Positions 5,322-26,254 of a stretch of 33,761 nucleotides of DNA are shown one piece after another; position 1 is the first letter of the stretch, and each line of letters starts with the position of its first letter. The notes below the pieces were generated by a model that was not told where the DNA came from, did no database searches, and saw only the letters and a list, made by a program, of their open reading frames with translations. This DNA comes from Clostridia bacterium (lineage in GTDB: Bacteria; Bacillota; DSM-521; Neomoorellales; JACIYF01). Made by a program: the position numbers and the translations under genes. The stretch covers positions 1-33,761 of the forward strand of contig JACIYF010000018.1 in assembly GCA_014360065.1 (NCBI GenBank), given 5' to 3'.

Positions 5322-5419
5322 TATCTGTGGGGTCACGCTGCGGAACTGCAGAGAAAATCCCGCAGGAGTGTTCGGTATTTAGTCTCGAGGTGACTTAGTG
5401 CTATACGTGGCAGCAAGTC

Positions 5420-5439
5420 GGTGCTGAAGGATCAGCGCC
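5420..5439 (+). other. Small hairpin in the yceD-rpmF gap
   Basis: GGTGCTGA (5420-5427) pairs with TCAGCGCC (5432-5439), with one G-T wobble and an AGGA loop. It lies about 40 nt before the rpmF start. It could be a processing or regulatory element; nothing else in the 157-nt gap is recognised. Confidence 0.3.
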
Positions 5440-5478
5440 CCAGCCGGAAGTATATGCTTTTCTGGAGGAGAATGAAAA

Positions 5479-5658
5479 ATGGGTGTACCTAAGAGGAGAC
5501 AATCACGCGCAAGAAAAAACCAGAGACGTTCTATTGTTAGCAGGGTAGGAGCCCCCAAGTTGGTAGAATGCCCACAATGTCACGGGCTTAAACTGCCGCA
5601 CCGTGTATGCCCCAACTGTGGTTTTTACAAGGAACGCGAAGTCCTTCAGGTTAAATAG
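5479..5658 (+). CDS. rpmF: 50S ribosomal protein L32
   Basis: L32 is a small basic protein of the large ribosomal subunit. The 59-aa product begins MGVPKRRQSRARKNQRRS, the classic L32 N-terminus, and carries the zinc-binding pairs CPQC and CPNC (residues about 31-34 and 44-47), so this is the zinc-containing form. ATG 5479 follows GGAGG (5464-5468) with a 10-nt spacer. It is the second gene of the yceD-rpmF unit and is followed by a terminator at 5676-5708. The C-terminal YKEREVLQVK is also typical. Confidence 0.97.
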   Translation: MGVPKRRQSRARKNQRRSIVSRVGAPKLVECPQCHGLKLPHRVCPNCGFYKEREVLQVK

Positions 5659-24929: not shown

Positions 24930-25565
24930 ATGTATCAGCTTGGCAAAGAAAGAAGCTCGCTGATGTTAGGGTGGTCTAAGACCGAAAAGGAGTTATATGC
25001 CTTAGGTCATCGATTGATAGCAGGAGTTGACGAGGCAGGTCGGGGACCAATTGCCGGCCCAGTAGTGGCTGCGGCAGTGGTGCTAGATCCCTGGACTCCT
25101 GTTGAGCTGCTGGAAGACTCAAAGAAGCTAAGCCCGAGCAAGCGCCAAGAGGCAAGCGTGCTTATTCGGCGACATGCCAGAGCATGGAGCGTTGGAATGG
25201 TCGGAGCAGCTGAGATTGATAAAATGAACATCCGCAAGGCTAGTCTGGCAGCTATGGCTATGGCGCTAGAGCGTTTGGCTGTGCAGCCGGACTATGTTTT
25301 GATAGACGGGACTGAGGTGCCATCGGGGAATGTGCTCAGCCGTTCGGTAGTCAAGGGAGATGCGCATGTAGCTTGCATTGCTGCTGCCTCCATCTTGGCT
25401 AAGGTTTTTCGAGATGATTTAATGCGTTGGTATGATAGAATATACCCGGGTTATGGATTAGCTCAACATAAAGGGTATGCTACCCCGCAACACCTGGATG
25501 CTATACATAGGTTGGGATTAAGCCCCCTTCATCGGACAACCTTCCGGGTCGCCGTAGCGGGGTAA
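24930..25565 (+). CDS. rnhB: Ribonuclease HII
   Basis: RNase HII removes ribonucleotides misincorporated in DNA and RNA of RNA-DNA hybrids. The catalytic residues are visible: Asp34 and Glu35 in AGVDEAGRGPIAGPV, Asp126 in LIDGTEV and Asp144 in VVKGDAHVACIAAASILAKV. DSKKLSPSKR is also typical. The start is uncertain, as neither ATG 24930 nor ATG 24963 has a good ribosome binding site; the second would still keep the whole catalytic domain. The 79-nt gap after lepB holds nothing I recognise. This gene ends the translation block. Confidence 0.94.
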   Translation: MYQLGKERSSLMLGWSKTEKELYALGHRLIAGVDEAGRGPIAGPVVAAAVVLDPWTPVELLEDSKKLSPSKRQEASVLIRRHARAWSVGMVGAAEIDKMNIRKASLAAMAMALERLAVQPDYVLIDGTEVPSGNVLSRSVVKGDAHVACIAAASILAKVFRDDLMRWYDRIYPGYGLAQHKGYATPQHLDAIHRLGLSPLHRTTFRVAVAG

Positions 25566-25891
25566 TTTATTAAGAGCCCAGCCATTATGAAATGGGGCGC
25601 TATAGGTGGGCAGCAAGGCGCTATGGGCATTAGTAGTAACTGCCGGCTGTTCATCGAAGGGGAGTGCCCCATGCGGCAAGCCGTACAACTTTGGAGGGCA
25701 AAAACCTAGTAGGGGACGCCGCAGCGGTGGTCCAGAAGTGACCCAGCACTCAACTCAGGGACTTGGGCGGGGAGTTCGCCCGGGTCAGATAGCCAGGGCT
25801 TTGCCATATGATAATGAACCAACGGTTGAGTGCTGGGCGGAGCGGAAGACCAAGGACCCAGCCGGAAAGACATGTTTTCTGTTGGAGGAGG
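25566..25891 (+). other. 326-bp gene-free stretch with strong RNA-structure potential
   Basis: No convincing coding region lies between rnhB and nuoA. Potential structures include a perfect 13-bp stem, CCCAGCACTCAAC (25742-25754) with GTTGAGTGCTGGG (25825-25837). It encloses a 9-bp hairpin, ACTTGGGCG (25761-25769) with CGCCCGGGT (25777-25785). Upstream, TGCCG (25641-25645) can pair with CGGCA (25674-25678), enclosing GGGG/CCCC. An 8-bp direct repeat GGCGCTAT occurs at 25596 and 25617. I tested it by eye against RNase P RNA, tmRNA, SRP RNA and common riboswitches and saw no match. It may be a nuo operon leader or an independent RNA. Confidence 0.5.
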
Positions 25892-26254
25892 ATGGACGTG
25901 CTTGTAGAGTTTTCCAGTCTCGTGATATTCCTTATCGGTGGCTTAGGTTTTGCAGGGTTGGCATTGGGAGTAGCGCGCTTGCTTCGCCCGAAGCATCCTA
26001 CGCCGCTCAAGCTTACTACTTATGAATGCGGGCCTGAGCCTCAAGGTCCAACCTGGGTACAGTTTAAGGCCAGCTATTTTCTTTACGCTCTTATTTTTCT
26101 GTTGTTCGATGTGGAGACAGTTTTCTTATATCCGTGGGCAGTTAAGTTTCAGGTTTTACCTTGGTTTGCTTTTGTGGAGATGTTTATCTTTATTGGCATA
26201 CTGGTAATTGGTTTATGGTATGCCTGGAAGGAGGGAGCATTGGAATGGAAGTAA
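25892..26254 (+). CDS. nuoA: NADH-quinone oxidoreductase-type subunit A
   Basis: NuoA is a small membrane subunit at the junction of complex I arms. The 120-aa protein has about three membrane helices and the conserved [10 protein letters not shown] loop with its Cys, then [21 protein letters not shown], whose acidic pair D-x-E is typical (split: [14 protein letters not shown]). ATG 25892 lies only 3 nt after GGAGG; GTG 25898 lies 6 nt after GGAGGAGG and is an equally good start. It is the first gene of the operon and overlaps nuoB by 10 nt. Confidence 0.95.

Follow-up and report, generated by a model that had tools for sequence, protein, structure and literature searches.

Several families of short, structured repeats have been described in bacteria. 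Rickettsia palindromic elements (RPEs) are palindromic repeats of about 100 nt with inverted ends of about 12 bp and many copies; they are known to insert in frame into protein genes and also lie in RNA genes, including those of RNase P RNA and tmRNA (PMC2229807). MITEs such as ERIC and Correia are short and non-coding, end in inverted repeats, occur in many copies and are transcribed as hairpins (PMC10969869, PMC2229807). BOX, RUP and SPRITE of pneumococcus are modular, nested, structured intergenic repeats limited to their clade; BOX and RUP lie between convergent genes more often than expected (PMC3049150). Conserved RNAs also carry inserts and repeats: the clostridial rRNA expansion segments and inserts fold on themselves and have related motifs in intergenic regions (PMC7812874, a paper on 5S rRNA), and heterocystous cyanobacteria have STRR repeats in their RNase P RNA (Vioque 1997, as cited in PMC2858038).

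We compared with these families the gap between rnhB and nuoA in a window (the whole stretch of DNA analysed, 33,761 nt) taken from the draft genome, in 242 contigs, of a Clostridia bacterium (G000). The most economical account of this gap is a MITE- or RPE-like palindromic unit, called here B, nested in an oriented intercistronic repeat, called here the head-P2-tail unit; we put the probability that the gap is such a composite of two dispersed repeats at roughly three in four. No description of the head, tail or B repeats was found in the literature searched.

Structure of the rnhB-nuoA gap and its fate in relatives

The gap measures 326 nt (25566-25891), begins directly after the rnhB stop codon at 25565, and lies in a gene order that we take to be typical of Bacillota. 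A first-pass annotation had described it as a gene-free region in which a perfect 13-bp stem encloses a smaller hairpin, with further stems upstream and no resemblance to known RNA classes. All these observations were borne out. The two arms (25742-25754 with 25825-25837, 70 nt between them) are exactly complementary, and a perfect inverted repeat of at least 13 bp arose in only 1 of 2000 dinucleotide shuffles of the gap stretch. The inner hairpin and the upstream stems were recovered in the predicted fold, the overall stability of which is modest (z = -2.2, with 2 of 100 shuffles equally good). Searching the gap with Rfam 15 gave nothing at the gathering score and nothing credible at E<=1. 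A hidden conserved protein was rejected, since Pfam returned nothing for 25606-26025, the sole long open reading frame running across the gap. An integron attC site, a group II intron and a CRISPR were likewise discarded, as Rfam returned no match for them in the window and the context does not fit. Because the Shine-Dalgarno sequence GGAGGAGG abuts the ATG at 25892, the GTG at 25898, which is better spaced (window 25884-25900), may be the nuoA start. When the gap was searched against its own genome, many partial copies were obtained, which resolved into the modules listed in Table 1.

Table 1. Features of the rnhB-nuoA gap, of a second copy in the window and of B-end hairpins in RNA genes
Feature	Position or locus	Strand	Description
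rnhB	24930-25565	+	PF01351; upstream neighbour
Head module	25659-25705	+	GGGGAGTGCCCCA, then hairpin TGCGGCAAGCCGTA (25672-25685), then CAAC..CAAAAACC; profile model R1
P2 long stem, 5' strand and linker	25706-25741	+	GGGACGCCGCAGCGGTGGTCCAGAAGTGA; cognate-versus-swapped pairing test
Unit B, left terminal inverted repeat	25742-25754	+	CCCAGCACTCAAC; left arm of the 13-bp stem
Unit B, interior	25755-25824	+	contains the inner hairpin (about 25760-25769 with 25777-25786); differs among copies
Unit B, right terminal inverted repeat	25825-25837	+	GTTGAGTGCTGGG; exact complement of CCCAGCACTCAAC
Linker and P2 3' strand	25838-25861	+	GGACC.. pairs with ..GGTCC
Tail module	25862-25883	+	CCGGAAAGACATGTTTTCTGTT; diverged copy, 3 mismatches to the tail consensus (alignment)
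Shine-Dalgarno, end of head-P2-tail unit	25884-25891	+	GGAGGAGG (sequence); most tails arranged alike
nuoA	25892-26254	+	PF00507; start ATG 25892 or GTG 25898
Second copy: P2 3' strand, tail (5444-5462), Shine-Dalgarno	5388-5474	+	before rpmF (5479-5658)
B-end hairpin in RNase P RNA class A (rnpB)	L110-L112, L191, L196		exact ends
B-end hairpin in cobalamin (vitamin-B12) riboswitch	L189, L192		exact ends
B-end hairpin in 16S rRNA	L195		two inserts, one with slightly altered ends

The same interval was then compared in 18 relatives of the same order in which rnhB adjoins nuoA or the region upstream of nuoA can be read. Their readable gaps measure 52-217 nt compared to 326 nt in the window, and neither the head nor B is present in any of the 17 readable rnhB-nuoA gaps, so that the stems are not kept at nuoA in these relatives, an outcome that the first-pass annotation had named in advance as a refutation and that here tells against a nuo-specific leader. 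On this comparison the unit is specific to the source lineage at the nuoA site, by gain there or by loss elsewhere. Most of the relatives (L140-L155) carry another short motif in this gap, approximately GCAGGGATTTCCATAAATATGGCGAATA, which is possibly a regulatory or repeated element.

These results bear on the proposal of a nuo-specific element, be it a riboswitch, an attenuator, a leader responding to redox or metal state, or a separate small RNA. The position just before nuoA and the stability of the stems speak for it. The lack of an Rfam match, of any promoter-like or intrinsic-terminator-like site on the gene strand within the gap, and of the unit in the gaps of relatives all argue against it, as does the occurrence of the same modules in many copies before unrelated genes (see below), and we consider it highly improbable. 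Of the structured nuoA leader originally suggested, what stands is that the region is structured, lies in the 5' leader of nuoA and contains a stem, P2, with compensatory pairing; its dedication to complex I does not.

Orientation and pairing of the head-P2-tail unit

A profile model of the head (R1), built from 15 copies of the segment 25659-25705, gave 27 matches at E<=0.01 in the source genome, with the window copy scoring 52.6 bits. Outside it, the one strong match precedes an aroQ-like gene in a MAG of the Thermoanaerobacteraceae (L013), and there are two weak matches in the same order; R1 had no match in the remaining sampled genomes. One of the two matches in a contig scan with a single head motif (L014) is a 23-nt stretch within a gene and was dismissed as chance. 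With <=2 mismatches allowed, the tail motif CYGGAARTAWATGNTTTT has 38 matches in the source genome and its reversed control has 2. Copy numbers in this genome derive from searches and from individually retrieved loci. The second copy in the window has neither an intact head nor B arms.

The unit is strongly oriented. With gene orientation taken from codon-based coding scores rather than from annotation, the downstream gene lies on the strand of the head in 20 of 22 copies and both neighbours do so in 19 of 22; a BOX repeat was rejected, as these 19 copies lie between two same-strand genes and not between convergent ones. From the upstream stop codon to the head there are usually no more than a few tens of nucleotides. 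At the other end, an open reading frame begins 13-28 nt past the tail in nearly all of the 21 tails at <=1 mismatch, most of which have a recognisable Shine-Dalgarno sequence in between. The genes that follow include nuoA, rplM, rpmF, hisI, thiE or a thiamine gene, a PfkB-type kinase and a sigma factor, all names except nuoA being read from translated starts and not from profile searches. At one locus (L043), a TPP riboswitch (1339-1448) directly precedes a head-P2-tail unit (1501-1546), which itself precedes a thiamine gene.

The strand following the head pairs with the strand preceding the tail to form P2. In 19 copies, the cognate strands paired with a mean energy of -30.3 kcal/mol compared to -27.0 kcal/mol for swapped strands (p=0.002, 10,000 permutations), and at two loci (L044 and L051) the P2 sequence is wholly different while the long stem still forms. 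This cognate pairing supports a constraint at the RNA level on the unit. Covariation in the head hairpin is weak. GGAG is enriched in the left flank of the head-tail unit (9 of 23 against a background of 8.8%), which would fit a target-site duplication of the Shine-Dalgarno sequence; such a duplication is not supported, as cognate flanks match no better than shuffled ones (p=0.32).

Both the strong orientation bias and the P2 covariation suggest more than passive insertion and, to that extent, count against our preferred account. They raise the possibility of a regulon of about 25-40 intercistronic genes whose translation or stability is set by the head-P2-tail unit as a common 5'-leader RNA, acted on by one RNA-binding protein or RNase; B would then be a mere insert at the tip of the unit. 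Alongside the compensatory P2 pairing, inclusive of the two loci with an unrelated P2, and the orientation, the fixed spacing from tail to start codon and the weak head covariation favour this reading. Against it, the downstream genes (nuoA, rplM, rpmF, hisI, thiE, a sigma factor) have no common function, few close homologues exist beyond the source genome, and selection keeping the Shine-Dalgarno sequence could equally produce the orientation. We regard a shared leader as a possible explanation, though a doubtful one. The orientation itself may be functional, or else only insertions that left a Shine-Dalgarno sequence may have survived selection.

Under the composite of two dispersed repeats, which we prefer, two small repeats would have come between rnhB and nuoA in the source lineage. 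Two properties would let the head-P2-tail unit be tolerated there, and maybe even favoured by selection: a Shine-Dalgarno sequence remains usable after it, and the RNA between the cistrons folds into hairpins. The effect of the unit on nuoA would likely be general, such as separating nuoA translation from rnhB, altering mRNA stability or permitting processing of the RNase III type, and is not likely to consist of ligand sensing specific to complex I.

Unit B and the recurrence of its ends in structured RNAs

Unit B is about 94 bp long with terminal inverted repeats of 11-13 bp (CCAGCACTCAA...TTGAGTGCTGG). At <=1 mismatch, the source genome has 211 occurrences of the arm CCAGCACTCAA and 22 of its reversed control; most of the arms form convergent pairs with a spacing of about 83 bp. 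Since the arms recur in this manner across the genome, the 13-bp stem of the gap is the terminal inverted repeat of B. We gathered 63 distinct copies, mostly of 93-94 bp, which fall into several subfamilies with unlike interiors; B is present in about 60-100 copies in the genome. The two repeats are found apart as well: B without the head at some loci, head and tail without B at L044, L051 and L063. Some intergenic regions of the same genome are mosaics of two B units and further conserved linkers (for instance L069, L074, L080 and L086).

The arms are perfect in 29 of the 63 copies. The changes seen in them are one-sided in 57 cases, of which 40 break a pair, and compensatory in none, a pattern that is as expected of DNA repeats decaying after their spread. 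B would be a non-autonomous palindromic mobile element of the MITE or RPE kind, its copies arising by recombination through the arms or by the action of a putative transposase in trans. No clear target-site duplication was seen when copies with and without B were compared by eye, and two widely spaced arm pairs (C93, C75) contain ordinary genes, so an autonomous element between the arms of these two pairs was rejected. The lack of a transposase with B ends among the arm pairs inspected, and of a target duplication, counts against a mobile element. Plasmids gave no match to the full unit (distant BLAST), and viral contigs gave none to the exact B ends.

The CIRCE operator has the consensus TTAGCACTC-N9-GAGTGCTAA. 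The core of the B arms, AGCACTC/GAGTGCT, equals a CIRCE half-site, possibly by coincidence; CIRCE was rejected as an identity, the core being common and the spacer about 72 nt instead of N9.

The ends of B were also searched for as a strict pattern, CAGCACTCAA-N64-92-TTGAGTGCTG, in 399 sampled genomes of the phylum, exact matching of this kind undercounting divergent copies. The pattern was found in 13 of the 399 (32 matches in the source genome, 16 in G019, 2 in G001 and single ones in scattered genomes), and its reversed control matched in none. In G019, which belongs to the same order, the interiors appear unrelated to those of the source genome. Most of the single copies lie within known RNAs of other genomes in the phylum (Table 1), where they fold as hairpins closed by the common end stem. 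Within RNase P RNA the hairpin replaces P12, and most of the RNase P RNAs examined have no insert. In one genus, represented by seven species, mean identity in P12 is 94% over the 22 bases of the arms and 46% over the interior. Arm changes are compensatory in three of these species (G007, G015, G010) and broken in one, CCAGCAC/GTGCTGG becoming CCGGCAC/GTGCCGG or CCCGCAC/GTGCGGG. Between G006 and G010, the interiors are identical and the sole difference is one paired arm change.

That the P12 arms are more conserved than the interior is the one fact that neutral insertion leaves unexplained; simple insertion with subsequent drift does not account for it. Any of three processes could: a protein that recognises the stem, recombination through the arms that exchanges interiors, or insertion that happened more than once. 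Alternatively, the end stem formed by CCAGCACTCAA and TTGAGTGCTGG may serve in RNA as a retained recognition signal, for instance in excision or in cleavage by a double-strand RNase, and this would allow the hairpins to reside in RNase P RNA, riboswitches, 16S rRNA and mRNA leaders. This alternative draws on the exact ends in three RNA classes and several genera, on the identity of the P12 arms within one genus and on the compensatory A-U to G-C or C-G changes there. We nevertheless judge it unlikely, considering the one-sided, uncompensated decay of the arms in the source genome and the missing insert in most RNase P RNAs examined. Tentatively, and in broader form, palindromic inserts with constant 10-11-bp ends and free interiors might be spread phylum-wide in P12, cobalamin riboswitches, 16S rRNA and mRNA leaders, with the end stem as a signal maintained for spread or for RNA processing.

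Significance and comparison with known repeats

The analysis removes a false riboswitch lead before nuoA and puts a testable one in its place: hairpin ends that recur in essential or regulatory RNAs of three classes, as well as at about 100 spots of one genome. If these ends are a signal, they point to a new mobilising or processing factor in these bacteria. B-end hairpins explain some of the P12 helices of unusual length and some of the 16S rRNA inserts, features that matter to gene finding and to rRNA surveys. With its orientation and its end at a Shine-Dalgarno sequence, the head-P2-tail unit shows how a repeat can, in nature, supply or preserve translation starts.

BOX and RUP offer a precedent for nested modular repeats such as the head-P2-tail unit with B; unlike them, the head-P2-tail unit prefers co-directional gene pairs and ends at a Shine-Dalgarno sequence. 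B resembles MITEs in being short, in its inverted ends of 11-13 bp and in its many dispersed copies; in contrast to ERIC and Correia, its interiors vary greatly while its ends stay constant, and no target duplication or parent insertion sequence was found. The STRRs, as far as they are described in the citing paper, are short tandem repeats, whereas B is a palindrome with inverted ends. Like the clostridial rRNA inserts, hairpins with B ends fold on themselves within conserved RNAs of Clostridia-like bacteria and have counterparts in intergenic regions; no description of the CCAGCACTCAA end was found in the 5S rRNA paper. Finally, B is like the RPEs in size, palindromic form, inverted ends, copy number and RNA-gene hosts, RNase P RNA among them. 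It differs in phylum, its host being placed outside the Rickettsia group by gene order, apparently in the sequence of ends and interiors, and in the riboswitches and 16S rRNA that also host its ends; we therefore liken B to the RPEs and do not class it as one. For palindromic repeats within RNase P RNA and tmRNA, the RPEs are a direct precedent.
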